DNA of 64,000 bases from Tomocerus qinae (taxonomy: Eukaryota; Arthropoda; Collembola; Entomobryomorpha; Tomoceridae), in assembly GCA_020055645.1 (NCBI GenBank), contig CM034547.1, positions 26,560,513 through 26,624,512 of the forward strand, read 5' to 3'. Shown piece after piece: positions 33,101 to 63,364 of this stretch. The notes under the pieces were generated by a model. That model was not told where the DNA came from. It searched no databases and saw only the letters and a list, made by a program, of their open reading frames with translations. Numbering within the stretch: position 1 is the stretch's first letter; each line of letters starts with the position of its first letter. The position numbers and the translations under genes were made by a program.

Positions 33101-35455
33101 ATAGTTTAATTGCTTCTAGAAGTGTCAACATAGGGTTTTACTGCTATTAGAAGTGTCAACATAGGTAATAATTGCTATTAGAAGTGTCGTCATAGGTATT
33201 TATTGCTATTAGAAGTGTCGACATAGGTATTTATTGCTATTAGAAGTGTCAGTTTTACTGCTTCTAGAAGTGTCAACATAGGGTTTTATTGCTTCAAAAA
33301 GTGTCAACATAAGGTTTTGCTGCTTCCAAAAGTGTCAACATAGGGTTTTACTGCTTCCAAAAGTGTCAATATAGGTATTTATTGCTTCCAAAAGTGTCAA
33401 CATATGGTTTTACTGCTTCTAGAAGTGTCAACATAGTCGTTTTACTGCTTCTAGAAGTGTCAACATAGGGTTTTACTGCTTCCAAAAGTGTCAACATAGG
33501 GTTTTACTGCTTCCAAAAGTGTCAACATAGGTATTTATTGCTTCCAGAAGTGTCAACATATGGTTTTACTGCTTTTAGAAGTGTCAACATATGGTTTTAC
33601 TGCTTTTAGAAGTGTCGACAAAGGGTTTTACTGCTTCCGGAAGTGTCAACATATGGATTTACCACTTCTGGAAGTGTCAACATATAGTTCTATTGCTTCT
33701 AAAAGTGTCAACATATAGTTTTTCTGCTTTTAGAAGTGTCAACATATAGTTTTATTGCTTCTAGAAGTGTCAACATATAGTTTAATTGCTTCTAGAAGTG
33801 TCAACATAGGGTTTTACTGCTATTAGAAGTGTCAGCATAGGTAATAATTGCTATTAGAAGTGTCGACATAGGTATTTATTGCTATTAGAAGTGTCAGTTT
33901 TACTGCTTCTAGAAGTGTCAACATAGGGTTTTATTGCTTCAAAAAGTGTCAACATAAGGTTTTGCTGCTTCCAAAAGTGTCAACATAGGGTTTTACTGCT
34001 TCCAAAAGTGTCAATATAGGTATTTATTGCTTCCAAAAGTGTCAACATATGGTTTTACTGCTTCTAGAAGTGTCAACATAGTCGTTTTACTGCTTCTAGA
34101 AGTGTCAACATAGGGTTTTACTGCTTCCAAAAGTGTCAACATAGGGTTTTACTGCTTCCAAAAGTGTCAACATAGGTATTTATTGCTTCCAGAAGTGTCA
34201 ACATATGGTTTTACTGCTTTTAGAAGTGTCAACATATGGTTTTACTGCTTTTAGAAGTGTCGACAAAGGGTTTTACTGCTTCCGGAAGTGTCAACATATG
34301 GATTTACCACTTCTGGAAGTGTCAACATATAGTTTTATTGCTTCTAAAAGTGTCAACATATAGTTTTTCTGCTTTTAGAAGTGTCAACATATAGTTTTAT
34401 TGCTTCTAGAAGTGTCAACATATAGTTTAATTGCTTCTAGAAGTGTCAACATAGGGTTTTACTGCTATTAGAAGTGTCAGCATAGGTAATAATTGCTATT
34501 AGAAGTGTCGTCATAGGTATTTATTGCTATTAGAAGTGTCGACATAGGTATTTATTGCTATTAGAAGTGTCAGTTTTACTGCTTCTAGAAGTGTCAACAT
34601 AGGGTTTTATTGCTTCCAAAAGTGTCAACATAAGGTTTTGCTGCTTCCAAAAGTGTCAACATAGGGTTTTACTGCTTCCAAAAGTGTCAATATAGGTATT
34701 TATTGCTTCCAAAAGTGTCAACATATGGTTTTACTGCTTCTAGAAGTGTCAACATAGTCGTTTTACTGCTTCTAGAAGTGTCAACATAGGGTTTTACTGC
34801 TTCCAAAAGTGTCAACATAGGGTTTTACTGCTTCCAAAAGTGTCAACATAGGTATTTATTGCTTCCAGAAGTGTCAACATATGGTTTTACTGCTTTTAGA
34901 AGTGTCAACATATGGTTTTACTGCTTTTAGAAGTGTCAACATATGGTTTTACTGCTTTTAGAAGTGTCGACAAAGGGTTTTACTGCTTCCGGAAGTGTCA
35001 ACATATGGATTTACCACTTCTGGAAGTGTCAACATATAGTTCTATTGCTTCTAAAAGTGTCAACATATAGTTTTTCTGCTTTTAGAAGTGTCAACATATA
35101 GTTTTATTGCTTCTAGAAGTGTCAACATATAGTTTAATTGCTTCTAGAAGTGTCAACATAGGGTTTTACTGCTATTAGAAGTGTCAGCATAGGTAATAAT
35201 TGCTATTAGAAGTGTCGTCATAGGTATTTATTGCTATTAGAAGTGTCGACATAGGTATTTATTGCTATTAGAAGTGTCAACATAGGGTTTTACTGCTTCC
35301 AAAAGTGTCAATAAAGGTATTTATTGCTTCCAAAAGTGTCAACATATGGTTTTACTGCTTCTAGAAGTGTCAACATAGGGTTTTACTGCTTCTAGAAGTG
35401 TCAACATAGGGTTTTACTGCTTCTAGAAGTGTCAACATAGGGTTTAACTGCTTCT
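30130..35455. repeat. 31-bp satellite in higher-order repeats
   Basis: About 170 monomers of the form GTTTTACTGCTTCTAGAAGT then GTCAACATATG. Each centres on a short palindrome (CTTCTAGAAG, CTTTTAGAAG, CTTCCGGAAG, or broken CTTCCAAAAG and CTATTAGAAG). A marker monomer with TAGTCG recurs at 30606, 31282, 31927, 32603, 33434, 34079 and 34755. Spacing is 676, 645, 676, 831, 645 and 676, so higher-order units differ by whole monomers (31 or 155 bp). Confidence 0.96.
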
Positions 35456-36097
35456 AGATATAGTAGAGATTATAAAATTTCAAATTTGGTCGAAGCGGCA
35501 AAATTTAAATTTGACTATCATAATGAAAAGCAATTCGAAAAATATAAATTTGACTATCAATTTGAATATAAATAATTGTGAAATAGATTTATTTTCCGTC
35601 CTATAATAGGCATTTTCCGGTTTTATTTACTTTGTTACAAAATCTTAAATTTGGTCGAAGCGGCATTTAAAATTTTGTACTATCCCGCTAACAATCCATA
35701 GGAAGCACATTTGAACTTTTAATGTCCATTTAATGTCACATTTTCATTTTGACTATCAAAATGAAGACAAAGTGAGCGCGCGTCATCTCAGCAACCTGTG
35801 GACCAATGTGGCCCATTTTCAATAGGCTTTGTCACAGGTCCATAGGCAATGTTTTTGCAAAGTTTAGTTGAAATCCATCAATGTCTTCAAAAGTTATCGT
35901 GTAAACGGACGGACGCACGGACGGACGGACTGTGCGATTCTATAAGCTGCCTTATCAGGCGAGCTAAAATTGACGCAACTTCCGTTATATTCGTCCTAAA
36001 AGATAGTTTAATACCTCGTTCGATATCAGAATGGTTTAAGGAACACTATTAAGTAGGTTACAGTCATCCCCTAACAGGGGAAGGGGGTAAAATCATA

Positions 36098-43056: not shown

Positions 43057-43374
43057 GTACTTTTCTTTGCGTAGAGTGGAGAGAGTACTCAATCAGGACT
43101 GGTGGATATAGTTCGCGCTGACGAAAATTGAAAAAATTCTCTATAAATTGAAACTGGTCGTTTACACTTATACGAATCTACGCAAATCTACGAAGGTAGC
43201 GGGGAAAACCCTACTATATTAACTATTATAAGGTTAACATGGGACCGTATAAACCCAAAAACCGACTTTCGGTCGACGGCCTTGTGATGTAGCACAAGGT
43301 GGCGGACCGTTGGCCGTTGCGTCTATATTTTAGTATCTTGATCCCACCTTAAGTAAGCGCTAGATGATAATTAC

Positions 43375-43689
43375 CGATCCGTCCGACGACGTGTACAAAA
43401 TGAAAGCCAAAATGGGTTTTTTGTTGGTTGAGGGAAAGACGATGACAGCCCCGGCTCCGGTCTCAAGGCTTTCTTTAACTTCATACAGGGACTCTTCAAA
43501 CTCGGTCCAATGTCCACTAGACTTATCTTGCACTGCCACAACCACCATATAATCCTCAAAATTCACCGTTTTTAAAATTCCTTTGTTAGAACTAGAACTG
43601 GATAAAGTTACATGAAGACCCGGGTAGAGACTAGGGCTTTCCAAGAAGTCGTCAAGCTCGCACGGGCTAATTAGTGTTACCACTCCATC
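43375..43689 (-). CDS. UBE2O-like protein, internal exon 3
   Basis: A 105-codon exon bounded by an AG acceptor (43690-43691) and a GT donor (43373-43374, GGTAATTATC on the minus strand), both phase 0. It begins DGVVTLISPCEL and continues LYPGLHVTL. With the end of exon 2 this resembles the conserved CR2 region of UBE2O (…VxWxDGxVxxxISxxEL…pGdxV). Exon 2 lies 57 bases upstream across a short intron (43690-43746). The next candidate exon of the same gene is about 14.6 kb away at 28758, beyond the satellites. Confidence 0.65.
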
Positions 43690-44042
43690 CTAGATAATTA
43701 ATTAGTTAAATAGGTATCACATGTGCGCATTAAATATTGATTATACCTTTAGCCAAATGACTTGGAGTAGAGACGTCATGTCGACGACTTGCACAAGGAC
43801 AGTCGTGTTATCCTCTAATACATCGTTGATGATGTTGTGATCCTTAAATTCCTCGTGAGAATTCTTAGGGTGCATTGCCCACAGATTTTCTTGGACGACA
43901 ATCATGTCATCCTTCAGCTTTAAATTCCGTATTGATCCTAGATGTACACTTAAATTTTCAAACGGCTTCAATCGTCGAGTGAAGTTTTGCTGCAAGTCAG
44001 CTTCGTTAAGACAATGCTTTGGTCTTGGTCTGCATCTCATAC

Positions 44043-44518
44043 TATTAGAGAGCAGAGCTCCCCACAATTCATACACTAAAAGGAGCGAACAGTCTAGTGC
44101 GCCGTTCCCTCCACCCTAACATTCCTTCCAGCAAAGGAAATACAAATTGTCGTAGTAGTCGACATGCTGCTCAGCTTCAGCCTACACATCCATTCGGTCA
44201 GCCATTGCACCAACACTGAGAACCTCGTCTTCTCCAGTATTTCTTATATTCTAAATTCAATTCTGATCTTTGTCAATTAAGTAACTGTCATATTAAATTG
44301 TGCTACTTTAAACTATACTACGGAAGTCTATTGGCAATTGGATTGATTGGGCAAGCACGAAACCTAACCCCGAGATACATTGAATCATAATTCATATTTT
44401 ATATTATATTATTATTATAATATTTAGTAATACACATACAACATTACATTCACATTCCCCTCAAATTATAATGAGTTTGCTGTTACTACAGTAGAACAGC
44501 GGCAGACTCATAATAAAG
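44043..44518 (+). repeat. 5' long terminal repeat (476 bp)
   Basis: Begins TATTAGAGAGCAGAGCTCCC and ends GACTCATAATAAAG. Identical to 48516-48991 as far as I can read, with a constant offset of 4473 throughout (no indels). The ends are not the usual TG...CA. Confidence 0.96.
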
Positions 44519-44533
44519 TGACACCCAACGCTA
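44519..44533 (+). promoter_or_regulatory. Possible primer-binding site
   Basis: TGACACCCAACGCT directly follows the 5' LTR. It resembles the tRNA-Lys type PBS (TGGCGCCCAAC) with two G-to-A differences. Position is right; identity is tentative. Confidence 0.45.
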
Positions 44534-44616
44534 AAATTGCTTTCAATCTCTCCATTGTCAAGACGTCTTCAGTGAAAAAAATTGAAGAAAAACGAAGATT
44601 CATCTTTACTACTACT

Positions 44617-44765
44617 ACAAGTCGTACTAGTTGACTTGTCTTCGTTATCGTCATCTGTCGCAAAGTCGCACTAGTTGACTTACGGTATCCTTCATCATCC
44701 ATCGACATAAGTCGCAATACTTGACTTATCCTATATCATCAAAATAAGTCGTATTAGTTGACTTA
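44617..44765 (+). other. Four-hairpin array in the retrotransposon leader
   Basis: Hairpins at 44617-44639, 44663-44681, 44707-44729 and 44745-44765 share stem core AAGTC/GACTT and 9-nt loops of the form GYANTASTT (GTACTAGTT, GCACTAGTT, GCAATACTT, GTATTAGTT). Outer pairs covary: ACAAG/CTTGT in the first, ATAAG/CTTAT in the third, TAAG/CTTA in the fourth. They lie between LTR and gag, where packaging or dimerisation signals of retroelements usually sit. Confidence 0.75.
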
Positions 44766-44867
44766 CTGGATCTCCAATTTTCATCGAGCTGGAACACTTG
44801 GCTATTCAATGTCTACTACAAAACATCGAACTAAAACGGTAAATAACACAATATAATATAATCTAGC

Positions 44868-45107
44868 ATGGTACCTATTTCTCTGTCAGAATTAATTCAC
44901 CCTGATTTCATTACGTATGGTTTTGTCAAAATTTTTCCAAAAGAATTGCCTATGACAATGACTGAATACAAAATCTGTATCGGTGTCGAACACTTATTCA
45001 ATTCTCGATTGTTTTTGCAAAATACATCCGACTTATCAACTACACTTTTCTATTGTGTGATGAACGGATACAGATTTTATTCAGTGCAGTTCAGTGAAAT
45101 TAACTAA
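44868..45107 (+). CDS. Short leader ORF, unknown
   Basis: An ATG-started 79-codon frame in the leader of the LTR element, containing Thr/Tyr/Phe-rich sequence (…LPMTMTEYKICIGVEHLF…). No domain recognised. Its position upstream of gag would make it an upstream ORF on the genomic RNA if translated. It may be chance. Confidence 0.25.
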   Translation: MVPISLSELIHPDFITYGFVKIFPKELPMTMTEYKICIGVEHLFNSRLFLQNTSDLSTTLFYCVMNGYRFYSVQFSEIN

Positions 45108-45548
45108 TATATCATTCATTTTCAAAAAATCTAACAAAATTTTTCTAAACTATTTGTCTCAAGTAACCCCTACCTACCTAAGCTTGCCGTATTACTTGGC
45201 AGACATTTTTCTTAAAAACGCCTACCTTCCTTCTAATGACCTCGAACTTTCAGAACATTCCAGACCTATCTGTTAATCAGCATAATTACCTCTCGCCTAC
45301 ATACGTTATCTATCGAACATTTTGTTTCAATGCTATTTTAGTATTCATTTTTCCAATCATTGTGTATGGAGACGATATTACAATATTATTATCACAGTCA
45401 ATAGTTTTCATTTACTTTATTTAAAACTTACCTACTTACTAGTATAATATATTTCAACAAAGTTTTAACAATTTATCTTGTCTTTTACCTACCTTGCTGT
45501 CTCCACTCCACATTTGAATAATTATCTCAATTATTTAGATAACTTTGC

Positions 45549-47276
45549 ATGGAGAGGGATAGAAGCGTAGAAAGAGGACATAGAGAGAGGTTAGAGCTAG
45601 GTAACGCAGTTAATGTAGATAATAATATTCAACCAGCTAATAATATTCCTATCGAACCTGCATTTCTGAATCCAGAAATACTTTGGGAAAACGCTTCTAC
45701 AATCTTTACTTCGGACTCTCGTCCAACTACACCAGATATTTTTGTCAGTTATTCTAATAGTTCTAATCACAGTATGGATAATTTACCTGATTTACCTGAA
45801 GAACTGCAAGCCATCATTCCACAAGAGCGTAGACAAATGCTAGATAGATATCTTGCTCAAGCAGTTGAAGTATTAGTACGTAACAATAACGCACAACCAG
45901 TAGCTAATCAAATCCAACAGCCAGGTCACATTCAAAATCGTCTAGACATTCAGCCTCTACAAAGAGACAGACAATTTATCATAAATGCTCCTAATCCTAA
46001 CCTAAAGATACCACAATACAATCCTAAAACTACCACAGCTAATAACTATTTAAATGATGTGGAAATTTATTTCCAAGCTCAGCATTATGAACGAAATAGA
46101 TGGTTTAATCTAATTCCGAGTATTCTAGCTAAAGAAAATGAGCAGTGGTACGACCTAATCAAGAATCAGATAGCGACATGGGATGAATTCCGAGACATAT
46201 TTAATGCAAAATACGACTCACCAACTATTCAGAACGAAAGAAAAAGAACTCTGTACACAAGACGCCAGCAATCCAATGAAGCTGTCGAGACATATGTCTA
46301 CGACATGATCACCTTGGCTCAACAAATAAATCCAAATGAAGTCATGGAAGTCTCCGTCAACCGAGCAAGAGATGGCTTTATTCCTCGACTACGATTGGCA
46401 GTCAGCCACGTTGAATATCTCACGGCCGATGACCTCATTGCTGCCGCTAAGGTTGCATTAAAAAACTTACAGGACGCAGAAAGGTATAAAGCAGGCCTTC
46501 CTCCAGCAACCAAGCAAGAAGCAGATAAGCGCTTTCGAGAACAAAATTCCTCAGACCACCCTCAGAACCATGTAAATCCTCATGGAGAAGAAAATACTTC
46601 CTTCGACTCCGAAGAAAGCTTCAAAGGGCGATTCAATTCTCGTCGTTGTTATAATAATAACAATGGCTATTTTCGTAACAATCATAATAATCCTAATCCT
46701 AATAATATACAAAATAATAGTACTAATCATTCTAATTCTAACACCAACAGAGACGAGCGTAATAATAACTCGAGACAACAGTCAAACAGAGGTGCTCACT
46801 CATCATCAAACTCTCGTCAACCCGCTAACAATCCGAATTACGATGTAAAATGCAGAAAATGCACCGGCTTTGGGCATGCTACTCCAGATTGTCCAAATAC
46901 ACATGGAGTTATGATGACACTCGTTCATGATGATGGCCGTAATACTTGGCCAACATCAGCGAACGAAAACTACTACTATAATTCTCAACCTTCGACTTCT
47001 CAGGCTTCAAACGACCGTAATTCTTGTGCAGCTCCGACTCCCCATCACTATCATGACCGTAATACTTGGTCATTGTCACAACACAACAATGACCGTACTA
47101 CTTGGTCATCGTCACAACACAACAATAACCGTACTACTTGGTCTTCTTCGCAGCAGAGAGACAACATATCAAATCAAGCAGAAACACTAACAGAAGATCT
47201 ACATAATTCTCAGGATGGTGTTAGTGGTAAATCAAACAATCATAGCTGGGAAATGCATCCCTATTTTTCATCTTAA
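45549..47276 (+). CDS. gag: Gag polyprotein (Ty3/gypsy type)
   Basis: 575 residues, ATG start. Residues 1-150 are Asn/Gln-rich with Pro tracts. Residues about 155-320 form a retrotransposon Gag capsid domain (IPQYNPKTTTANNYLNDVEI, then a Trp-rich helix region WFNLIP...WYDLI...WDEFRDIFNAKY, and VETYVYDMITLAQQI). Residues 340-430 are basic and Asn-rich. A CCHC zinc knuckle lies at about 434-447 (CRKCTGFGHATPDC, fitting C-x2-C-x4-H-x4-C). The tail (about 470-545) repeats a motif like DRTTWSSSQHNN about four times. The protein should assemble virus-like particles and bind the element's RNA. No frameshift or stop is present, so it appears functional. No pol follows. Confidence 0.92.
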   Translation: MERDRSVERGHRERLELGNAVNVDNNIQPANNIPIEPAFLNPEILWENASTIFTSDSRPTTPDIFVSYSNSSNHSMDNLPDLPEELQAIIPQERRQMLDRYLAQAVEVLVRNNNAQPVANQIQQPGHIQNRLDIQPLQRDRQFIINAPNPNLKIPQYNPKTTTANNYLNDVEIYFQAQHYERNRWFNLIPSILAKENEQWYDLIKNQIATWDEFRDIFNAKYDSPTIQNERKRTLYTRRQQSNEAVETYVYDMITLAQQINPNEVMEVSVNRARDGFIPRLRLAVSHVEYLTADDLIAAAKVALKNLQDAERYKAGLPPATKQEADKRFREQNSSDHPQNHVNPHGEENTSFDSEESFKGRFNSRRCYNNNNGYFRNNHNNPNPNNIQNNSTNHSNSNTNRDERNNNSRQQSNRGAHSSSNSRQPANNPNYDVKCRKCTGFGHATPDCPNTHGVMMTLVHDDGRNTWPTSANENYYYNSQPSTSQASNDRNSCAAPTPHHYHDRNTWSLSQHNNDRTTWSSSQHNNNRTTWSSSQQRDNISNQAETLTEDLHNSQDGVSGKSNNHSWEMHPYFSS

Positions 47277-47450
47277 TTCTCACATAACTATTAATTAGTA
47301 CATAAAATTAACATGCTAGATTTTAGGTACATGCACCCAATTGCTATAATATTATCATCATATATGAATATATTGGAAAGGAAGATTTAGTCTCTCACGA
47401 CAACCAATGCAATTTAGAATGGATTTCTGTATAAATTGTATTATTGTATA

Positions 47451-47655
47451 AAAATCCTATAACGGCCTAGTCCTTCATAGGTAGTGCAGTTGATAATAGT
47501 AAATCACTCGCACATATAAATAGTTAAAATCCTATAACGGTTTAACCCTTCATAGGTAGTGCAGCTGATAGTAGTAAATCACTCGCACAGATAGATAGAT
47601 TAAAAATCCTGTAGCATTTCTCACAGGTAGTGCAGCTGGTATAAACCACTCGCAC
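47451..47655 (+). other. Three-copy, two-hairpin RNA motif downstream of gag
   Basis: Copies at 47451-47513, 47526-47588 and 47603-47655. Each has hairpin 1 (CCTAT...ATAGG in copies 1 and 2, CCTGT...ACAGG in copy 3) and hairpin 2 (GTGCAGNTGAT...ATCACTCGCAC in copies 1 and 2, GTGCAGCTGGT...ACCACTCGCAC in copy 3). The A-T to G-C replacement in both stems of copy 3 is compensatory, arguing for conserved RNA structure rather than a simple DNA repeat. A separate 12-bp-arm hairpin follows at 47745-47770. Confidence 0.8.
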
Positions 47656-48503
47656 CCAGAGTAGGATAATGCATCCGACCTCTAATATGAACAATGAATA
47701 TTTTGATGAAAATTAAATTCAAATACTAATTATGTTTTTAGGTGCGGGTTGAACATTAATGTTCATCCCGACTTACATAAATGTCAGGAACTAGGCTCAT
47801 ACACTTGACTAATTATTTCCTCGACAATGTCATTATTGACTAATTAATTTAAAAATAATTGTTTACTTTATATCATAAAATCTTTCGATTCGGCTACCTT
47901 AAAATTAAAATCCTATCTATCGTGTGTTTGTATTTCGTTACTATTCAGCTACTAATACTAAAGTTAAAATTAGCTATAGTCCTATCTTTATCTCTAGGTT
48001 AATGTTACTTTCTCTCTTACAGCACAATTACTAAACAAAAACTAACACACAGACAGATTAATCAATGTTCTAGTTCATTGTCATTTCAGAAACAACATCC
48101 TCAAGTCAATAAAGCTGTGAAACGTATATTGTACCGTATTATTTGGTCATATATACCATCAATTCCAGAAACAGCACGAAACACCAATGTTGACCTTTCT
48201 ATACGTTAATGACTATCTGATTGCTACCATTGTGACAAACATCTGAACTAACTGACAATAATATTCTTTTTGTTTCTAATTAACTATCTCTAAATATTAA
48301 ATACCAAATTATTTTGTTTTCTGTTTCAAAAGTTAAAATCTGATTGATTTACATTTCTAAATTATGTCTAAAAAGTAACATTACAATGTGATGACTTAAC
48401 CAAATTGATTGAAATACTTGATTTAATTATAAACCCATGCAATTTATTTCTGAAGTCTACACTACAGATTTTTCACGTCGTCCATCCTAAGATGTCCTCG
48501 TTC

Positions 48504-48515
48504 GAGGGAGGAGAA
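48504..48515 (+). promoter_or_regulatory. Polypurine tract
   Basis: GAGGGAGGAGAA ends exactly at the first base of the 3' LTR, the expected place for the plus-strand primer. It supports the LTR start chosen here. Confidence 0.85.
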
Positions 48516-48991
48516 TATTAGAGAGCAGAGCTCCCCACAATTCATACACTAAAAGGAGCGAACAGTCTAGTGCGCCGTTCCCTCCACCCTAACATTCCTT
48601 CCAGCAAAGGAAATACAAATTGTCGTAGTAGTCGACATGCTGCTCAGCTTCAGCCTACACATCCATTCGGTCAGCCATTGCACCAACACTGAGAACCTCG
48701 TCTTCTCCAGTATTTCTTATATTCTAAATTCAATTCTGATCTTTGTCAATTAAGTAACTGTCATATTAAATTGTGCTACTTTAAACTATACTACGGAAGT
48801 CTATTGGCAATTGGATTGATTGGGCAAGCACGAAACCTAACCCCGAGATACATTGAATCATAATTCATATTTTATATTATATTATTATTATAATATTTAG
48901 TAATACACATACAACATTACATTCACATTCCCCTCAAATTATAATGAGTTTGCTGTTACTACAGTAGAACAGCGGCAGACTCATAATAAAG
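48516..48991 (+). repeat. 3' long terminal repeat (476 bp)
   Basis: Same sequence as 44043-44518. After it the host exon resumes at 48992 (minus strand). The 49,040-50,700 interval holds no feature I can support. Confidence 0.96.
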
Positions 48992-50708
48992 ACCGTTTTT
49001 ATCCTGCACCACCTCTTTGATCCAATTCACTCTCACCTATTAATATACATGAAATAAACTAAATTGAACAATTGAACTTTCTAAATACTCTATGGAATGA
49101 TAGAATTTGGTTATATCCGCGGGTTGTCATAATTGGTGTCCGACCACCAAATAAAAATTACTAGGTATTAAAATGCTTCTAAAGTGGACATTTTTATAAC
49201 GCGAACTTGGAAATTCTGAGAGGTTAGCTGAAATGGGTTGCAAAAATAATAAAATTGCAATACGACCCTTTTTTCGTTTTTATTAAAATTATCAGGTCGT
49301 CAAGAGGGTTTGGTTTCGGCTGGCTCTATATGTTATTGCATGGATTAGAGGCCAGTGGCTCGGATCGGTTCGCTCATCTAAACTAGCAATAGGTGTGGTC
49401 GAATTTGAAATATGCGACTAAAATATGATAGGCTGGGACGAAGAACAAGCAACTAGACTTAACGAACATATGTTGGCTGGCTAGAATATTGATTGGTTTT
49501 AAGGTGTGAAAAAGGCGGAGTAGTTGGATGGCTAGACTACTGATAGGTGCAGAGTGGGGGGAGGCGGAGCCAAATGACAATAAGCAGATTGTTATAGCTG
49601 AGCCTTCTTTACTAACAATTCTGCCAACAAAAGGTAGATGGCTCTTCGTTGATTTAGGCTAGGTTTATTATATCCGTAAAATATGGACCGGTAGGACATT
49701 AATTTATTATACGATAAGTGGTAAAGTCATTGATGAGGGTGTTGCCGGTGGTAAGTGGTAAGAGATGAATTGTTACCAATGTTCAACAACGCCAACACTG
49801 GCAACGAGGTACCACTGTCTAAAATCAGTCCTCGACTGTGAACAAATTAATTTTTGATACTGTTTTGATGCTGTTTTCCACTCCAACACTTTGGAAACCC
49901 GTTCTAGCACATTGGAAACTCAATCCAACACAACTCATGCATGTTTTCAAGATGTTGTTTTGCATATTCAAACCAGTTTGTGTAAGATTGAAATCGATTT
50001 TTGAAAAATCAGTTTTGCATAAATAAAGTAGGGAAGAGAGAGAAGTTATGCCTCATTTGCGGCCCTACTTTGACTGAGAGTTTGGCCCTACCTAAAGGAT
50101 TTTGGCTTAACCTATCGGGTTATTTAGACCTGTAGACACCCTCAAAACAAATACCAGGAGAATTTGATTATATAATTATATTCTAGCGCTTCAGCATATT
50201 TGACTGACTGACAAGGTGACAAGTACAGGCAGTTTATTCACTGAGCCCCAGTTACAGTTTTTTAGATCTTGAAGAACATATAGTAGATTAGATTACATCC
50301 GACTTCCTTTACAGCAACTTCCTTTTATAGTATCCAGGCAACATTTCTCAAATTATGTCTTAAAACGTACTCTTTCGTATCTCGGTTCTCTGTTTACGAA
50401 GACTATACCTTCCAAATAATGTCTGATAATGTATAACAAATAAGACTTATTCCAAAGTTTTAATTCACAAGTATACTTCCAACAACTCAACTATATTCAT
50501 ACGAATGAAATTGCAATGAGATTCAGATTTGGTATTCATCCATACTATTTCGCTATTCACGGTATTTGCTTCATTAAATTCTACCCCTTAAAATGCATTT
50601 TGGAAATCATATAGATTTATGTAAATGAAATCTGCAATTTCATTGGCTAATTTCAAAAAATTTGGACCAATCAGAGAGGAGCAAAAATGTAGTCAGAATT
50701 TGAATCAA

Positions 50709-51106: not shown

Positions 51107-51276
51107 ATGTCAGAACTAATGGTTACGACAGTATATCTTTTTCCTAAAAGTTTCAGGTTTTCGAGATTTGGCTAGGATTTTTGAACTAAATGTAAAGTCT
51201 TTTACATTAGTGATTGACAAATTCTGAAAACAGTTAGCCTGCCTCGAGTGTCTGCCTATGAAAAAATGCAATATAC

Positions 51277-51930
51277 TTGTTGTATGGAAATCCTTATGAT
51301 TGTGGAACTGAGGAATTCTTCTTTTGACATATTTGGCAGTGGCGAGAAATCCTTCCACTTTCTGTCTCCAAGCTTCAATCCGACGTAGAACATTGTATGT
51401 CTTCCAAAGTCATCCTTTTCGACAGAATGATTTTCAAGGTCGTCCCAGGTGATCCAAATTGTCTTCTTTTCATATCGCTGATCTTCCGAGCACGGATATT
51501 CTAATTTGACTATCCGGTTGACTTTGATACATTGGCCTACCCACATGTCGCACAAAATATGGTCTCCGTCACTCAATATTTTAGGATTGTACAACCTACT
51601 TGCAGGAACATTGACCACTACCACCTCATCTCGTATTCCTAATAATAATTTTGCAGTCACCGTCTTGTGGACGTTCTGGATGTATCCGATTTTGTTATCG
51701 CTGATTTGTCGAACAAAATCTCCAGGATGAAAAGCACGGTCAGATAGTTGCCACTTTGGAAAACATTTTGAGTAGACTTGTCTCGTTGAAGGCTGAGTGT
51801 GCCAAGCTACTTCAACACTAACACCCTCGTCATAATCCGACACAACGTGGCCAAAAATAGTTGGATTTTCACTGTTCGCTAGGGTCACCAGATCACCTCT
51901 TCTCAACTCCCGGTCCTTTGAAGTATCCAT
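51277..51930 (-). CDS. UBE2O-like protein, first coding exon
   Basis: A 218-codon exon from ATG at 51930 to a probable donor (CAACAA/GTATAT). It begins MDTSKDRELRRGDLVTLANS. It then matches the N-terminal CR1 pattern of UBE2O, the large hybrid E2/E3 ubiquitin ligase: GHVVSD...VEVAWHTQPS...PGDFVRQ...GYIQNVHKTV, then SRLYNPKILSDGDHILCDMW and VGQCIKVNRIVKLEY. UBE2O recognises exposed basic and hydrophobic surfaces of orphan proteins through its CR domains. Exon 2 candidates lie at 49036 and below and carry CR2-like sequence, so one minus-strand gene can run from 51930 towards 27820. The protein would be much shorter than vertebrate UBE2O unless exons are missing from view. The call rests on pattern match, not alignment. 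Confidence 0.72.
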
Positions 51931-54320: not shown

Positions 54321-54594
54321 AAATGCTTTCAGGATCTAATTTAATCATCTAATTCTAAATGTGTATTATTATTTTATAGTATTAAAATAGCTCAGTTTTG
54401 TTATCCATGCCATTACAAAACAACCATTATTTACCAAAACGTTTCTACATAAAGTTTATAACGAGGAGTAACACAATAAACTGTTTCCACTTATTATTTC
54501 CCTATAAATACTTTTGAAGTACAGAATAACTCTTCATTTACATTTAACAATTACATTGCTTAACATAAATAAACAAAATAATTACATTTTTAAA

Positions 54595-54981
54595 ATGAAA
54601 TCCATATATACTTTTTCCGACGGTCATTATTTAGAGACTCTTCAATCCCAAATTCATAAGGGGACACCTTATAGCGTTAGTTCTAGGGTACAAAGAGGAG
54701 GGGGTTTGTTCTCTACAATGGCAAGATATGTATTGCCAGTCATCAAAAAACATGTCATTGCTAGCGCAAAACGAGCGGCGATTAAAACAGCATCAGATGT
54801 GCTCTGTGGAACATCCATAAAGCAAGCCATTAAAACAAATGGAATTAATTTAGCAAAGGAAATTGGAAAGAATATTATTTCTTCAGTTAACCAAAAAGGT
54901 TCTGGGAAAGTAAGAAAAAGGAAGTTGTTGACTTCCACATTTGACCATAACGAAAAGAAGAAGAAAAAATTCAGAGAATAA
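54595..54981 (+). CDS. Adenovirus pVI/pX-like core or minor virion protein
   Basis: 128 residues from the ATG at 54595, chosen over the upstream in-frame ATG at 54514 because the earlier 27 residues look like AT-rich leader. It has a GG-type motif (VQRGGG, residues 32-37), an amphipathic helix region (residues about 40-75), a second Ala/Ile-rich segment and a very basic tail (KVRKRKL, KKKKK). In adintoviruses a small basic protein of this form, resembling adenovirus pVI/pX, sits beside the capsid gene. QRGG-G fits the adenovirus-protease cleavage pattern, and an adenovirus-type protease is encoded nearby. The role is inferred from position and composition. Confidence 0.68.
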   Translation: MKSIYTFSDGHYLETLQSQIHKGTPYSVSSRVQRGGGLFSTMARYVLPVIKKHVIASAKRAAIKTASDVLCGTSIKQAIKTNGINLAKEIGKNIISSVNQKGSGKVRKRKLLTSTFDHNEKKKKKFRE

Positions 54982-55036
54982 AACCACCAGTTTTAAAGAA
55001 GGGTATCAGGAGAAATAAAATAGACATACTGTCATA

Positions 55037-56421
55037 ATGTCTTTACTCCACACATCATCTCAACCAGCGATTCGTGATCAGGCAGACTTATTTTCATCAT
55101 TATTAACAGGTAAGTTACTTTATATTTTCTACACTAATTTACTGACGGTTAATTTACATTTTTCTCAATAGATACAACTGTAGAATCGAGTTTCTATGCT
55201 GAATTTAAACCTGTCGTGAACATCCAGGACTCTGATGCAAAATTAGAATTTAAAATAATGGGTAATAGCAGCCACTACCTGAATCTTGGGGATCATTTTT
55301 TAACTCTATGTGTACGTTTGGAACAAAACAATGGTGATCCCATACCTCAAGAAATAGACATTAGCGTCACCAATAACACATTTCATTCTTTGTTTCTTCA
55401 ATGTGAGGTATATGTAAACAATCAAATTGTATCTACAACGAATAATTTGTATCCTTATAAAGCTTATTTCGAGGTAGTGTTTTCTTATAGTAGGGATTAT
55501 TATGAGTCACAAGCGTCCTGTACGTTATTTAACCCTGAAGATGACGCGTCTGTGGTAGATACTGCAAATGGTGGTTACTCTGAAAGACGAGATTTATTTA
55601 AGGGATCCAAAAATGTAGAGTTAGTAGGAAAACTACATATTGACTTGGGTAATCAAAGCCGTTACATTCTTAATGATACAAACGTAAGCATTGTTTTGAC
55701 TAGGTCCCCTGATAACTTTGTCATTTTATGTACAAACACCACTCTTGACGAAGATGCTGCTAGTACATTTATCCCCAGAATAAAATTTTTAGACGCAGGA
55801 TTGTTCATTAGAAAGGAAATTTTGTACCCAAGTTTGGTTGTTGCCCACCAAAAGCTCCTAGACAAGGAAGAGATTGCAAAATATTTTTATCAAAAAAAAG
55901 GTTTAAAATATTTTACAATCCCAAAAGGGAACCAGTCTTTTGTAGAGGAGAATGTCTTTGTAGCAAATGTTCCCAGTAAAGTAATTTTGGCTTTCGTATC
56001 TAGCAGAGGTTTTAATGGAGATCTTGCCTTAAATCCATTCAATTTCTATCACTACGATGTCAGCTACGTAGGTGTTTCTGTTAACAATATGCCCACACCC
56101 ATTAGACCCCTTAATTTAAATTTCAAAGACAATAAGTATCTACTGGCATACTATATGCTTTTCACTAGTTTAAAAAATGCTGGAAAAGATGTTGGTCTCC
56201 CCTTCAATAGATATAGTTACTGTACAGGAAACACTTTCTTTGCATTCGACATTTGCCCCTCAGATAGTGAGAACAACATTCTACATTTGGAAAAGTCAGG
56301 TAGTGTCCGTATAGAGCTAAAATTTCATACAGCTCTACCAGAAGCTGTTCACTGCCTTGTATATTCAGATACCCAGGCTGTCTTAGAAATAGATAAGTAT
56401 CGACAGGTGGTATCTCACTAA
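55037..56421 (+). CDS. Major capsid protein (hexon-like, double jelly roll), spliced
   Basis: Two exons: 55037-55109 and 55172-56421, joined across a 62-bp GT-AG intron (GTAAGT...CAATAG). The predicted product is 440 residues. The N-terminus (DTTVESSFYAEFKP) and the segment NTFHSLFLQCEVYVNNQIVS followed by YPYKAYFE are hallmarks of the Polinton capsid family, often annotated in animal genomes as F54H12.2-like. The remainder fits a double jelly-roll protein. No frameshift is present. Without the intron the frame would begin only at a GTG and lose this N-terminus, which supports splicing. The stop overlaps the protease ATG by one base (TAATG). Confidence 0.9.
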
Positions 56422-56999
56422 TGGATACATTACAATTACAATATATTTTACAACACACAATTGCCGACAGTAATAAATTTGTAAACGTTTTGTCGTGCGA
56501 TAAATTGGAATTTGTTCCCAACGAAGAATTTGCCATAATTGTTAATTCAGACCCTTCTACAAAACCTGGCTGTCATTGGTTAGCATTCTTTAAAGAAAAA
56601 TCAGACAACTATGTTGAATTTTTTGATAGTTTTGGATTTCCAATTAGCTACTATAATTTAGAATTTCAAAAATTTGTAAATAGATTAAATCTTAATGTAA
56701 GGTTAAGCAAAAAACAATTGCAATCACCAAGCGGGATCGTATGTGGTCAATATTGTGTATACTTTTTGCTAAATAGAAATATCCACAAAAAGTTTCAAGA
56801 TATTATTCAACCCTTTGGGAAAAAATTAACTAGTAACGATAGATATGTAGACAAATTTGTCCACTCTATACCGCTATACAATTCTCCCTTTAATAAAACA
56901 TGTAAAATAGATTGTTTGTCTTGTTATAAATGTCATGATACATATAAAAGAAATCCTTATATTCAAACTATTATATCATTATCTAAACATGTAAAATAA
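56421..56999 (+). CDS. Adenovirus-type maturation cysteine protease
   Basis: 192 residues. The catalytic order His-Asp-Gln-Cys of the adenain/Ulp1 clan is visible: GCHWLAF (His52), EFFDSFG (Asp69), KQLQSPSG (Gln101) and GQYCVYFL (Cys112). The size matches Polinton and adenovirus proteases. The C-terminal Cys-rich segment (CKIDCLSCYKCH, residues about 156-167) is unusual and could bind metal or form disulfides. The enzyme would cleave capsid and core precursors after GG-type sites. The gene starts on the last base of the capsid stop codon. Confidence 0.92.
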   Translation: MDTLQLQYILQHTIADSNKFVNVLSCDKLEFVPNEEFAIIVNSDPSTKPGCHWLAFFKEKSDNYVEFFDSFGFPISYYNLEFQKFVNRLNLNVRLSKKQLQSPSGIVCGQYCVYFLLNRNIHKKFQDIIQPFGKKLTSNDRYVDKFVHSIPLYNSPFNKTCKIDCLSCYKCHDTYKRNPYIQTIISLSKHVK

Positions 57000-57001
57000 A
57001 A

Positions 57002-57994
57002 ATGAAGAATAAATTTGCAACTATACCTCTCTGTCAATCTGTGTTTAGTCTTTATTGGGTTAGCATGTCTAACAACTTAATTCAGTCCGCTTATTTAAAT
57101 CCAAAACATCCAGCGAGTTTTGGAGGCATAAATAGATTAAAAGACGCATTTCCATCAGCATCAATTAAACAAATTCACACTGTGTTGCGAAAAGAAGATT
57201 GCTATACTAAACATAAAAATATACGTAGAAGGTTTAGACGCCGCCAAATTATTGTTCCAGGTAAAGATTATATTTGGCAAGCCGACCTAATTGATGTGAA
57301 AAAATACAGACGAGAGAACGATGGTTTTAACTTTATCTTGACCATTATTGACGTGTTCAGTAAATATGCCATTGCTATACCTATTCAAAATAAATCCGCC
57401 GAAGAGGTAACAAAAGCTTTTAAATACGTATTTAGTAAGGGAAATACACCAAAATTTCTGAGCACTGATTTTGGGAAAGAATTCTTCAATCGTAAATTAA
57501 TATCGTATTTAACTGACATTAACATTATTTTATTTCGTAATTTTTCAGACAAGAAGTGTAGTGTAGTAGAGCGTTTCAATAGAACATTATTTCTAAGATT
57601 ATCTAAACTATTTACGTTTCAACAAAATTGTAATTACACTAATAATTTACAGAATGTAATTACCTCATACAATAACTCAATTCATCGCAGTATTGGTATC
57701 CAACCATCTAAAGTTAACAAATATAATCAATTTGATATCTGGCTAAAACTATATGAGAAAACAATTTCTTTCCGTAATAAATCCAAAACTCTTTTTCATG
57801 TGAACGATGAAGTGAGAATTGTGAAAGATAAGAATTTATTTCAGAAAGGATATGATTCTAATTTTTCTTCGGAAACATTTATGATCTGTAAGGTAGTTAA
57901 TACCACCCCAGTTACATATAGAATAAAAGATAAAAATAATATTTGTATTGACGATATTTTTTATAACGAGGAAATGATTAAAATAAGTGCTTAA
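57002..57994 (+). CDS. Retrovirus-type integrase (DDE)
   Basis: 330 residues from the first ATG; MSNNLIQSAYLN at 57065 is an alternative start that better fits the family's N-terminus. Catalytic residues are Asp95 (WQADLIDV), Asp156 (STDFGKEF) and Glu190 (SVVERFNRTL), with 33 residues between the last two, as in Polintons. Residues about 265-325 form an SH3/chromo-like C-terminal region (VNDEVRIVKD...YRIKDKNN). It would insert the linear element into chromosomes. Intact; two bases separate it from the protease gene. Confidence 0.93.
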   Translation: MKNKFATIPLCQSVFSLYWVSMSNNLIQSAYLNPKHPASFGGINRLKDAFPSASIKQIHTVLRKEDCYTKHKNIRRRFRRRQIIVPGKDYIWQADLIDVKKYRRENDGFNFILTIIDVFSKYAIAIPIQNKSAEEVTKAFKYVFSKGNTPKFLSTDFGKEFFNRKLISYLTDINIILFRNFSDKKCSVVERFNRTLFLRLSKLFTFQQNCNYTNNLQNVITSYNNSIHRSIGIQPSKVNKYNQFDIWLKLYEKTISFRNKSKTLFHVNDEVRIVKDKNLFQKGYDSNFSSETFMICKVVNTTPVTYRIKDKNNICIDDIFYNEEMIKISA

Positions 57995-58038
57995 TGACAT
58001 TAACACCCCATTCTTAGTTTATGGATTGACTCAAAAGG

Positions 58039-58775
58039 ATGTCCTTCCATATGTATCTAACGTCCTCTTGTTCTAATTATTTCCCTGATAATACCACCAA
58101 CAATTTCAAGGTACAATTGCCATCTAACCTTAACATCCAGGCACATGAATACGAAGTTTCACTTACCGAGTTGTCACTAAAAATCAAAACAAATTGTAAC
58201 GAAAACAATTTTTTTATTAAAAAAGTGCTCAAACGACATTAAATCGAATAGTTTTAAAAGCCTTTCAATTCCCAATAGTTCCTTCAGGACTGTATCTAGC
58301 TTAGTAGCTTATATACAATCCATTATTGAAAAAAACTGACTATAAAGATCATATAACATTTAATTTTTCGAACATAACGAATAGAGTGTCAGTGACAATA
58401 TATAATTGTGAGGTAAAATTTAGCAAGCAATTGGCAAGTACAATAGGTTTGTGTGAGTTTTATAGCAACGATAGCAGTTATGAGGGTAATGTAATTGTAA
58501 ATAGTTTAAATCCAAGTACTAACATATTCATTTGTAGTAATATTGTCGAGTCAAGTATCTTTAACAGTAATTATGAGAAGATACTACGTTGTATACCTGT
58601 GAAAACTGGTAATACAGACAGTGTATTTCACCACCTTAGTGATCAATATTTCAAGGTGCCTGAAGGAACATATAATAGTATAAGTATATATTTGAAATCA
58701 GATAAAGAGGTGGATATATGTTATGAAATTGACGTTGTTAAACTACATTTTAAAAAAGTAATTAATAAAACATAA
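58039..58775 (+). pseudogene. Penton-like minor capsid protein, frame-broken
   Basis: The N-terminal part (58039-58242) has the family start SSCSNYFPDNTTNNF, and the C-terminal part (58326-58775) has the closing strands (…IYLKSDKEVDICYEIDVVKL). The middle is open in a third frame. The breaks lie near A-rich runs at about 58218-58226 and 58329-58336, each consistent with a single-base change. This could be decay, a sequencing or assembly indel, or less likely programmed shifting. Single jelly-roll penton proteins form the capsid vertices in Polintons and adintoviruses. Confidence 0.78.
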
Positions 58776-58781
58776 CATATT

Positions 58782-59405
58782 ATGACTAATGTAAATGAAA
58801 ACGAATATAAGTTCAAACATCCTTGCTCAATCGTTATAGCTGGCACCTCAATGTCAGGCAAAACGACATTTGTAGAAAAAATGTTAGAACACTTGAGCAC
58901 ATTGTTCAGTTCTTCAATTACGAATATTGTAATATCCTTTGCTAAAGAACAGAGTTTATACGACCGAATTAGAAATAAACATCAAAACGTAACGTTTGTA
59001 AACAACCTTGAGCTAGATGATTATTATGATTCATTAATCGTCATCGACGATCAAATGACAGATGTAGCAAAAAGCAGGAAAATTCAGGAGTTATTTATTA
59101 AAGGAGTTCATCATAATAGAAATACAGTTATATTAATTAACCAAAATCTATTTCCTCAGGGACAATTTGGGAAGGATATGAGGTTAAACACACATTATTT
59201 ATGTATTTTCAAATCCCCCTCATTTCTGTCTCAAGTACAATATTTAGGGAGGACATATTTTCCTCTTCACCCTTCATTATTAACCCATGCGTATTTAGAT
59301 GCCACCAAGTCTCCATACTCATATTTATTTATAAACTTACACACCCAGAGTGTGATGATAGAATACGAATCAGAACCTGTATTTTACCTAGTGAAGATGA
59401 GGTGA
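58782..59405 (+). CDS. FtsK/HerA-type genome-packaging ATPase
   Basis: 207 residues. Walker A is GTSMSGKT (residues 21-28) and Walker B is SLIVIDD (84-90). A conserved polar residue follows in VILINQNLF (about residues 115-123). Family members (A32-like) translocate DNA into capsids. Length and placement after the penton gene fit Polintons. Intact frame, ATG start. Confidence 0.92.
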   Translation: MTNVNENEYKFKHPCSIVIAGTSMSGKTTFVEKMLEHLSTLFSSSITNIVISFAKEQSLYDRIRNKHQNVTFVNNLELDDYYDSLIVIDDQMTDVAKSRKIQELFIKGVHHNRNTVILINQNLFPQGQFGKDMRLNTHYLCIFKSPSFLSQVQYLGRTYFPLHPSLLTHAYLDATKSPYSYLFINLHTQSVMIEYESEPVFYLVKMR

Positions 59406-59455
59406 TTTATACGTAAGAAGTTTTCTAATCATTTAGCTTTCTCACTCCATCATTC

Positions 59456-59866
59456 TTGTTTATGAGTTTGGTAGATGAGTATCGTATTTTGGTATTGTCT
59501 ATGTTTCAGTTGAATATGAGTAGGTGTACAGATAGAAACAAGTTATTTTTGGAACTTTTAAGTAAAGCTAACCCAATTCAAAGAAATAAAGCAATTAAAG
59601 AGGCTACTGCTGACAATCTTCATTGTATCACAGAGGTGGCTGTGAACACATTGAAGGGCAATATCCCAATAAAACCAGAGCTAAAAGAAAAATTAAAAAA
59701 GTATAAAAGTTCAATTCGAAAATTTTCTGAAAAAAATTATCTGTTAGTAAAAAGAAAAAAACATTTTTAAAGTATAGTAAGCATCTGCCATTATTGTTAC
59801 AACCATTTTTGTCAGCAAGTGGTATCATTATTGGTAGAGTTGTAAGCTCACATTTAAATTTACAGT
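59456..59866 (+). pseudogene. Conserved small basic Polinton protein, C-terminus frame-broken
   Basis: The frame 59456-59770 (a likely start is the ATG at 59462) gives about 100 residues with LLSKANPIQRNKAIKEATAD and a basic helix (ELKEKLKKYKSSIRKFSEKN). This pattern recurs as a small ORF next to the ATPase in many Polintons. After an A/T run at about 59755-59768 the frame stops. The usual hydrophobic C-terminal tail reads on in the next frame to about 59866. Function is unknown; a structural or core role is guessed from basic charge. Confidence 0.6.
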
Positions 59867-59890
59867 AAAAAAAGTTTTAATAAATTTTAA

Positions 59891-60656
59891 ATGTCGAAGC
59901 GCATGAAACTAATTCCTGAAAAGGAATACCATCATCTACATACATTAAAAAAAGCAAAGCATCTACAGCTTCCACAGTTGTTAGAAGAATCCTCAGTTAT
60001 AACAAAAGATAACGAGGCTTCAAATATATTAACATCTCAAATTCCAGACGATATAAAAAGTCAAATGTATAGTAGTATTATGAAAAGCGTAGGGGAAAAT
60101 ATACAATTGATTCTTAGGAAGCCAATTAAAGTAGAAATCGGTGAAACAAAAGCTAATTTGTCTGGACTGGCACCTATAGAAACCCCAGTTTTAAATCAAG
60201 ACGATATAATATTAACACCTGAGGATAAGCTACTATTAGCTTCAGTTCCACCATCAAATAAATCTGCGGTAAAACACATTATGAGCCTTCTCAAGGAAAA
60301 TGAGCAGATATCTTGGGATAATAGAGGCACTGTGAGATTCTTTGCCCAAAATCCATGTGAGGGCTCGAATATAATTGATTTGATAAGCTACATTACTAGA
60401 AATCTTAAGTGGGTTGTACATCCACCCAGGAGTTAACAGATTTTTGTTAGTTTGCAAAAAAATTAATATTCCTAGCACATTGTTAAATACTCGGTTACGT
60501 AAAGAATGGTGTCAACCTACTTTAAAACCTAGAGGAGATAAAACTCGCATAAGTGCCAATATTCTACAGCCTTCAACTTCATCTGAGGTTTCCTGGACAG
60601 CATTACGGAAAGAAGACCAAATTATAACGTTGGACGAATCAGTGAATAGCAGTTAG
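59891..60656 (+). pseudogene. Conserved Polinton ORF of unknown function, one frameshift
   Basis: The first part (59891-60436) begins MSKRMKLIPEKEY, has a Leu/Gln-rich region, then VPPSNKSAVKHIMSLLKEN, a segment ISWDNRGTVRFFAQ and SNIIDLISYITRNLKW. The family continues with a P-G-x2-x-F region, found in the +1 frame from about 60414 (GVNRFLLV, then RLRKEW), running to 60656. The break is one base near 60420. Similar proteins occur beside Polinton capsid genes; their role is unknown. Confidence 0.62.
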
Positions 60657-60732
60657 TAGAAGACTAACATGTAAGAAATTTTAATGTCATTCAATATTAT
60701 GATTTCAATCTATACACAACAAAAATTTGAGA

Positions 60733-61450
60733 ATGGCATCAAAATATTATATTTGTACTACAGGACATGGTATATATAATTTAGATATGGTGACTTTACA
60801 GTCTAGAATTTCCTCTTATACAAATATCAGGCTACAGTATAGTAACGTTTTTCTATTAAATTTGGTAAAATGTGGTTTTTATTACTCAGAAATTGAAGAT
60901 AAGTTGTTTTGCTACTTTTGTGGGTGTACTTTATTAAAAAATTTCAATAGTGATAATCCATGGTTGGAACACTCAATTTCCTATCCAAGGTGTCCTCATT
61001 TGCTTCTGCATAAAGGAAATAACTCCAAAGAACCAGACACCAACCTAGAAACCCTTATGGTATGCTTTTTGCTATAATTTAAAAAATGTTTTAATTTAAT
61101 ATTAAATTTCAATTTTACTTTAGAAAGTTGATGACATACCATGCATTGCGGACATACGTAACTCAGACCCATGGAGTAATGGTGTGTTGAACGTCTACTA
61201 CTACTATTATCATAAATGTGTTTTATTTGCTAAATATATTTTAAACTTAAATTGCATTGTAGATTTTGTTCAGAAAGCGTTTTTTGTTATGGGTGAAAAT
61301 TTATGTCAAATTTGTATGGAGAAAGAATCCATATATATGATGTCACCTTGTAATCATCTTGTATATTGTTCTAATTGTATTTGTACCCAACAGAAATGTA
61401 TAATTTGTCGTGTACCTCATGTTGGTTTTATGAAAGTTTTTAAATCATAA
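60733..61450 (+). CDS. BIR-RING protein (IAP-like), three exons
   Basis: Exons 60733-61059, 61124-61181 and 61263-61450 join with GT-AG introns and keep one frame; the product is 190 residues. One BIR domain covers about residues 22-95: zinc ligands Cys60, Cys63, His80 and Cys87 in the exact C-x2-C-x16-H-x6-C spacing, with the conserved Arg at 25. The C-terminus is a RING: C-x2-C-x11-C-x-H-x3-C-x2-C-x6-C-x2-C, ending RVPHVGFMKVFKS. This is the architecture of inhibitor-of-apoptosis E3 ligases, as in insects, baculoviruses and other large insect DNA viruses. In a virus-like element it would be expected to block cell death. Polyadenylation signals lie at about 61495 and 61515. Confidence 0.88.
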
Positions 61451-61588
61451 TGTTTTAGTTTTATTGTAATATTTCTTGTAAAATTTATCAATGAAAATAA
61501 ATCACTTGTTCGAGAATAAAATGAAGACTTGCTCAATGTTTATTAACGCATAAAGGAGTAAATTATTCAGTTAATCTTATAATTTCAT

Positions 61589-62029
61589 CTACGAATTATC
61601 CTCCCGATATCTTGAAAGAGCGATCTCATATTGGTCATCTCTTGGATTGTCTATCATCTCATCTGCATACTTCATAACATTTAACCATATTACATTATGA
61701 TTGTCCCTTAGTCTCCGAAGATCAAATTTTTCATTCCTGTTAACATACAATTAAAACATTAGTCAACAAATTTTGGTTTATGTAAATGATTAATTACTCA
61801 CTCTTCAGCCATGTCCAAAAGTGCTGTCATCAATGACCGAATTGTACGACTCCAACGGTGTATGGTACACGCGAAGTTCCTCTTTAATAATTTCAGCGAT
61901 TAAAAGAATTCGTAGTGCAGACCTATTGTGACCCAAAGTACTTACATACACTGTCGCCCCATAATAAGATAAAAGTTCTTTTGCCATATTGATACATGTT
62001 TGAGATCTGTGATTTGGGTTGTAAGACAT
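61589..62029 (-). pseudogene. Unknown accessory gene, two exons, one frame break
   Basis: Exon 1 (61802-62029) starts MSYNPNHRSQTCINMAKELL and has GATVYVSTLGHNRSALRILL then IAEIIKEE, which loosely recalls the Alba nucleic-acid-binding fold. Exon 2 (61589-61736) follows a GT-AG intron (61737-61801) and encodes NEKFDLRRLRDNHNV, ending YREDNS. Exon 1's ATG frame stops just before the donor. A different frame over its last 80 bases (…SLMTALLDMAEE) is the one that fits exon 2, so a one-base change lies near 61880. The gene is convergent with the IAP-like gene. No firm family. Confidence 0.5.
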
Positions 62030-62369
62030 GATGGCTAAATAAAGTATTGCGAGATGCTGATTCGGTTAAGAGAAATAACTTAATGATAAACAACTACTAT
62101 AAATTCTCTTCTACCACGTTTGTTTTGACTGTCCTTCTAATCACTGCACCGTTTCAGAGCGTGATAGTCAAAAGAGTTCAACTTGTTCTCACACAACATC
62201 AAATACGGTTTATGATTACTACCGTGCATTCACCTACTATAAAATAGATTTTCTTGACCAGTCACTTACTGAAGGAGTAGCAAGAAGAAGTGGATTCCTC
62301 AGAAAATGTCATATCTATATTACGCTACGACTTGTGATTTAGGCCTTGCCCCTATAAGGTTGTCTAACA

Positions 62370-62678: not shown

Positions 62679-62723
62679 ATAATACTGTCACATAATAAGT
62701 CACATAAATGCAACAGAAAAGTA

Positions 62724-63147: not shown

Positions 63148-63204
63148 TACTAACCAGACGAAATAAAACAAATGAGAGGATAATGTGAATTGATTTGTGT
63201 ATTT

Positions 63205-63340: not shown

Positions 63341-63364
63341 ATAATGATATTACTTTAACCCTTT

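Follow-up and report, generated by a model that had tools for sequence, protein, structure and literature searches.

A hairpin RNA array from within pol of a Ty3/Gypsy clade and its retention in enzyme-less derivatives in Tomocerus qinae

Introduction

Three tandem units, each folding into two hairpins, follow gag in an LTR retrotransposon of the collembolan Tomocerus qinae, and the array that they form is a structured RNA element under selection, in which compensatory changes go beyond phylogenetic expectation. It is most likely a cis-acting RNA element. The array is not peculiar to the gag-only element in which it was noticed, a point absent from the earlier note on this DNA, and alignment with full-length relatives indicates that it descends from their pol coding region. 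The window, i.e., the whole stretch of DNA that was analysed, comprises 64,000 nucleotides, and all DNA evidence presented here comes from one genome, the 334-Mb genome of the host.

The gag-only element and its array

The window element is of the Ty3/Gypsy type and gag-only: it is an LTR retrotransposon with an LTR pair, a gag ORF, and a polypurine tract (PPT), without reverse transcriptase (RT), RNase H, or integrase (Table 1). Its gag is 87% identical at the DNA level (blast) to that of the full-length relative L026, and 92% identical in a separate genome-wide gag search; the scores of the CCHC Pfam models on the window gag lie below the cut-off. The relic of the ORF3 start is made up of two matches, 47996-48105 (79%, to L026 5356-5468) and 48112-48295 (70%, to L026 5550-5735). 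A target-site duplication is absent at the LTR pair, where the adjoining bases are CATAC (44038-44042) and ACCGT (48992-48996). The missing duplication beside identical LTRs may mean that the copy arose by recombination or that the LTR ends were drawn wrongly.

Table 1. Features of the window element and its array (positions in the window).
Feature	Position	Strand	Remarks
5' LTR, 476 bp	44043..44518	+	100% identical to 48516-48991; 86% to the L026 LTR (full-length relative)
gag ORF (575 aa) with a capsid domain and a CCHC knuckle	45549..47276	+	Pfam Retrotrans_gag, E 5e-6
Former pol piece (RNase H-integrase border) containing the array; non-coding now	47367..47686	+	75-77% identical to L026 pol
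Array unit 1	47451..47525	+	Hairpin 1 47456-47481, hairpin 2 47484-47513; model R1 73.8 bits
Array unit 2	47526..47602	+	Hairpin 1 47531-47556, hairpin 2 47559-47588; model R1 72.5 bits
Array unit 3	47603..47655	+	Hairpin 1 47608-47627, hairpin 2 47630-47655; model R1 66.9 bits
Relic of the ORF3 5'-end region (Rrp6-like gene)	47996..48295	+	ATT at the place of the L026 ATG
3' splice-site-like sequence, pyrimidine tract and CAG	48003..48022	+	Sequence match only; position of the splice-site-like sequence preceding ORF3 in full-length relatives
Polypurine-tract-like sequence preceding the 3' LTR	48504..48515	+	By eye
3' LTR	48516..48991	+	Paired with the identical 44043..44518

The array begins 174 nt past the gag stop. 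The earlier note had described three copies at 47451-47655, each with two hairpins in the same order, and paired changes in copy 3 (CCTAT/ATAGG to CCTGT/ACAGG and TGAT/ATCA to TGGT/ACCA); direct reading bears out the former and shows the latter to be real. By themselves, the three copies are weak evidence, and it is the wider sampling described below that settles the structure. Their sense folding z-scores are -2.45, -1.24, and -2.32, and shuffled sequences matched units 1, 2, and 3 in folding in 3, 26, and 5 of 200 cases, respectively. That no known motif had been recognised agrees with Rfam 15, which returned zero matches for the whole window at the gathering cut-off and zero for four further arrays (L059-L062) at E values up to 10; membership of a known Rfam family was therefore rejected.

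Several other features were observed in the window. A 36-bp repeat in the C-terminal region of gag (three adjacent copies at 47043-47150 and a fourth at 46923-46958) encodes a repeated peptide C-terminal to the zinc knuckle. The element is flanked by minus-strand ORFs at 43360-43683, 43741-44076, and 51256-51930, which may be parts of one host gene; a UBE2O-type match to the ORF at 51256-51930 is weak and below the cut-off. ORFs that by eye resemble those of Maverick/Polinton-type elements (capsid-like protein, protease, integrase, packaging ATPase, and DNA polymerase) occupy 54514-63988, and a large satellite array with a 31-bp period and 163 copies lies at 30440-35458.

Copies in the host genome

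A DNA search of the host genome with the window array returned 43 matching pieces. The window family (W) is found at 10 places at 96-100% identity plus one shorter place, family N occupies 17 places that are mostly 76-78% identical, and L026 and L027 are full-length elements, the pol of L027 containing stops. Searches with the L034 and L033 arrays added the families Y (7 places) and X (20 places). Two of the seven Y places (L059 and L062) and four of the 20 X places (L060, L061, L063, and L064) were read directly, and the remaining 16 X places were assigned because they resemble the array of L033. When 300 aa of L026 pol served as a protein query, with the best 131 of 817 candidates scored, the full-length elements L031-L038 and L040 were added, which are 64-75% identical and in some cases broken. 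The unit number is three in W, N, and Y and two in the full-length elements and X.

The covariance model and host-genome search that the earlier note had proposed were carried out and yielded 113 units with mostly kept pairs. The model (R1) is based on 22 distinct units and on a structure drawn up by hand from these, and it located the 113 units, 55 of them distinct, in 43 sources; all lie inside arrays, the sources having been chosen for holding arrays. Applied to 31 sources, 19 of which are array-less relatives (37-53% identical), R1 detected 25 units, all of them in the other 12 sources, with no further hit up to E 1.

Outside this genome, a pattern scan of viral contigs gave zero matches, and gag and pol alignments against viral contigs gave none that was confirmed. 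Protein searches returned two relatives for gag, one of them 49% identical over 60% and from a metagenome record, two remote proteins for the integrase region, and zero relatives for ORF3. As neither the viral-contig nor the protein searches provided confirmed DNA relatives, the DNA evidence is limited to one genome.

Covariation and the hairpin core

Among the 55 distinct units, standard pairs are formed in 93.7% of 1136 pair cells, and two-sided changes occur at 17 of the 21 pairs. Breaks are not as frequent as compensations, a comparison that the earlier note had named as a possible refutation: 198 of the 1136 cells have changed on both sides, as against 72 that are unpaired. All 21 pairs are formed in six of the 55 units and 20 of the 21 in 27; the weak pairs are 15-25 and 49-64, which are unpaired in 20 and 18 units, respectively. 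The covariation score is 0.432, compared with 0.049-0.099 when the partners are slid by 1-3 columns.

The changes were also compared with a tree-based null that preserves both the phylogeny and the per-column number of changes (1000 simulations per alignment). On the model alignment, the MI sum was 6.45, whereas the null had a mean of 1.20 and a maximum of 2.61. Because this alignment had been fitted to the model, the test was repeated on a structure-blind MAFFT alignment, which gave an MI sum of 6.38 against a null maximum of 2.30 in 1000 runs; nine of the 21 pairs reached p<0.01 on both alignments. RNAalifold, applied to 21 representatives, arrived at the same fold unaided, with 19 pairs, 15 of which show two-sided changes. 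The number of further pair types was not above that of shuffles in the 55 units (33 vs. 31.2; 97 of 500 shuffles reached this number). For the initial 22 units, further pair types were matched by 499 of 500 shuffles and the count of pairs with two-sided changes by 38 of 500. The compensatory changes beyond the tree-based null in this wider sampling support the earlier proposal of a selected RNA structure in the gag-only element.

Each hairpin contains a core of A-G and C-U steps whose 3' side has an unpaired C, and this core is flanked by two stems that vary freely, but in pairs. The core of hairpin 2 (AG / CTC) is kept in 54 of the 55 distinct units and that of hairpin 1 (A-R-Y / Y-T-C) in 49, the six exceptions being the broken copy L037, four X-type first units, and one Y unit (L062). 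As there are 4-6 hairpins per array, one core is repeated 4 to 6 times, which would suit a multivalent binding platform. The core lacks specificity when used as a pattern by itself; a script matched it in five of the six hairpins of the window array, at six further places elsewhere in the window (both strands), and twice in 14 other pol loci. An antisense structure is also conceivable, since the minus strand folds well and at lower energy than the sense strand, but the excess of G-U over A-C cells (34 vs. 9, in cells that are not independent; 8 vs. 2 among the 21 representatives, counted by hand) favours the sense strand, and we infer that the array acts on sense RNA.

Origin in pol and retention without enzymes

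The pol ORF of L026 (1173 aa) encodes RT, RNase H, an H2C2 zinc domain, and an integrase core, and its two-unit array is read in frame and separates RNase H from the integrase zinc domain, an arrangement that recurs in the translations of L031-L034 and L036-L038. Codons were compared among five full-length gag-pol lineages (L029, which equals L026, as well as L031, L033, L034, and L038), leaving out the near-duplicates L032, L035, L036, and L040 and the broken L037 and L027. In these lineages, amino acid identity of pol is 0.50 inside the array, its lowest stretch, and 0.74 outside, whereas the same residue is encoded by the same codon at a frequency of 0.76 inside the array (n=223) and 0.53 outside. 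The 45-codon window with the highest synonymous identity of all pol (0.83) is at the array. The lowest protein identity together with the highest synonymous identity fits RNA selection on a tolerant protein linker.

The window element shares gag, the array piece, the ORF3-start region, the PPT, and the LTR with L026, and blast found nothing in it that matches L026 1740-3732 or 3990-5355 (protease-RT-RNase H and most of integrase). A short, possible remnant of the integrase zinc-domain codons was seen by eye near 47745-47800. Altogether, four multi-copy derivative families (W, N, X, and Y) keep the array. Lists read by eye, in which decayed remnants could be missed, contained no RT or integrase match within 10 kb of the derivative arrays; among the candidates scored (the best 150 of 538 for RT), RT and integrase matches near arrays occur at full-length loci only. 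N elements measure 3.8-4.5 kb between outer LTR ends, and the LTR pairs of the five copies tested are 99.6-100% identical. L011, the one N copy compared with L026, has gag and array matches only, and its retained pol has its left edge at 3754 in L026 coordinates, 21 nt from that of W (3733). Gag matches (best 150 of 312 candidates scored) are present beside 9 of the 11 arrays in W, all 7 in Y, 4 of the 20 in X, and 15 of the 17 in N, and 14 of the 15 beside N arrays contain stops. ORF3 matches adjoin five of the 20 X arrays, one being partial and one having stops, and the reading frame of the array itself contains stops in X and Y.

The best-matching parent of the array is L026 for W, L033 for X, and L036 or L034 for Y. 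Since these parents differ, the loss of pol from elements that kept the array was probably a repeated event, and W stands most clearly apart; W gag is 92% identical to that of L026 and at most 77% identical to those of the other full-length, X, and Y copies. Recent conservation in N and W extends beyond the array: diversity in N is 0.026 in the array vs. 0.086 outside, a value as low being found in 222 of 1563 equal-length blocks, and for W 532 of 2932 equal-length blocks are as low as the array.

ORF3 and the 3' splice-site-like sequence

Full-length elements carry ORF3 in the env position (L026:930-2612, minus strand), with 79 matching pieces in the genome. It comprises a 3'-5' exonuclease domain (PF01612, E 8e-20) and an HRDC domain, the closest solved structures being Rrp6/EXOSC10 (E 3e-19), and a CCHC-like knuckle can be discerned by eye. 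L026 has the D-x-E, D, and Y-x3-D motifs, the first two of which are likewise present in L033, L034, L036, and L040. Relatives of ORF3 with 24-35% identity adjoin several array-less Gypsy elements.

At all eight loci read, which represent five lineages, the ORF3 start codon is preceded at 4-17 nt by a pyrimidine-rich tract and AG. The window element keeps this 3' splice-site-like sequence (48022), a sequence match only, and ORF3 itself is gone. No 5' splice site with at least 8 of 9 consensus bases was found in 44401-47990 of the window; a 5' splice-site-like GTAAGT is seen just upstream of the array in L026 (4178-4183, minus strand) and L028 (near 3928), and none of the other 12 loci shown has one. 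The array lies upstream of the 3' splice-site-like sequence, so if this site is used, the array would be intronic and mark unspliced RNA. On the basis of this layout, the array probably marks unspliced RNA.

Function of the array

The likeliest role of the array is the selection of genomic RNA, via either Gag-mediated packaging or nuclear export. All the roles that the earlier note had put forward (packaging, export, and translation/stability) are still candidates. We would give roughly even chances to the more specific proposal that the array of this one Ty3/Gypsy clade marks full-length unspliced RNA for mobilisation, with packaging by Gag as the likeliest route. Its 4-6 core-bearing hairpins would form a multivalent landing platform for one protein. 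This partner would most likely be Gag, picking array RNA for particles, with a nuclear-export receptor a close second; that the array binds a protein, and that the protein is Gag, is what we infer. In keeping with a packaging or other mobilisation signal, non-autonomous derivatives among the best candidates scored retain the array, and Ty3 RNA localisation and packaging are reported to depend on UTR or POL sequences (PMC4974528). According to the same paper, terminal sequences suffice for Ty1 and Ty3 mini-elements to move once proteins are provided in trans (PMC4974528); a packaging signal inside the element would therefore be no general need, which counts against Gag packaging. Also against it, the stops in nearly all N gag matches mean that the binder must act in trans in N, the antisense strand folds at lower energy, and the low diversity in N and W is not confined to the array.

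Unspliced-RNA marking fits packaging and export alike, and a tentative alternative is that the array is an export or intron-retention element that gets unspliced RNA out of the nucleus via NXF1 or another factor. The 3' splice-site-like sequence before ORF3, kept together with the array in the window, would place the array in unspliced RNA only, but this site is a sequence match and the matching 5' splice site was not found in 44401-47990. Furthermore, the array, with its repeated hairpins bearing internal loops, is reminiscent of the CTE and its two internal loops (PMC7551171), and the C. elegans LTR retrotransposon Cer1 needs a dedicated protein for gRNA export (PMC10309623). Like the array, the CTE (MPMV/SRV) and related retroviral export elements are cis-acting structured RNAs with repeated internal loops, and the CTE serves unspliced RNA, as the array would in this comparison. 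They differ in that the array consists of 4-6 short hairpins inside pol and has the AAGACA loop, which PMC7551171 names for one MLV NXF1-recruiting element, in none of the 55 distinct units.

It is unlikely that the array and the Rrp6/EXOSC10-like ORF3 are two halves of a new Rev-RRE-like system. Here, spliced mRNA would give rise to a nuclease of the exosome type, captured by the element, that would go back into the nucleus, recognise the array in unspliced element RNA, and shield or export it; gag-only parasites would retain the array so as to exploit ORF3 and Gag in trans. In the RRE and Cer1-CERV systems, an extra protein from spliced mRNA likewise helps unspliced RNA, to which the position of ORF3 and the splice-site-like sequence would correspond here, whereas ORF3 is Rrp6-like by annotation and its contact with the array is hypothetical.

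Improbable, too, is an element for stability or translation, whose hairpins would prevent decay or control gag translation apart from packaging and export. The array does lie 3' of gag in the derivatives, and the parent elements encode an Rrp6-like nuclease, so decay may matter; yet in full-length elements it sits in the translated pol frame and is crossed by ribosomes, and in the N family it is kept where gag has stops.

Very improbable is a mere by-product of deletion, in which hairpins stall reverse transcriptase and template switches at these sites leave an array without a role behind, as the closely spaced left-hand boundaries of pol in W and L011 might suggest. Template switching at hairpins could favour deletions, yet it would not preserve pairs afterwards, and the synonymous conservation in intact pol, the kept pairs in derivatives that have lost the frame, and the retention of the ORF3-start region would all be left unexplained.

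A repeated peptide motif (GSAAD...SLAQ) with incidental pairing would suit the position of the units in the pol frame of full-length elements and the residues that they have in common, but it is scarcely credible and was rejected on the pol codon comparison: protein identity is lowest and synonymous identity highest at the array, and derivatives whose array frame contains stops still keep it. A functionless plain tandem repeat was rejected on covariation, the tree-based null, and synonymous conservation.

Relation to known systems and implications

Retroviral packaging signals have been mapped near the 5' end. Like these and the Ty packaging signals, the array, as a putative signal, is cis-acting and kept by derivatives without enzymes. 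The packaging signal of Ty1 is placed near the 5' end (PMC4974528), whereas the array lies between the RNase H and integrase codons. The same paper describes the location of the genomic-RNA sorting signals of Ty elements as not clearly defined (PMC4974528). No description of such an array was found in the open-licence literature. Gag-only non-autonomous LTR elements include the TR-GAG and LARD types. These have LTRs and a gag ORF and no pol enzymes, as does the window element; unlike them, several families here retain a defined RNA element of pol.

The clade presents a stretch of pol with dual use, in which RNA selection overrides protein selection. Its derivatives are apparently the outcome of a repeated natural deletion, in which the enzymes were lost and one structure of 130-250 nt from inside pol was kept. 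What has been kept is a small, precisely bounded RNA that offers a predicted recognition core together with natural compensatory variants.
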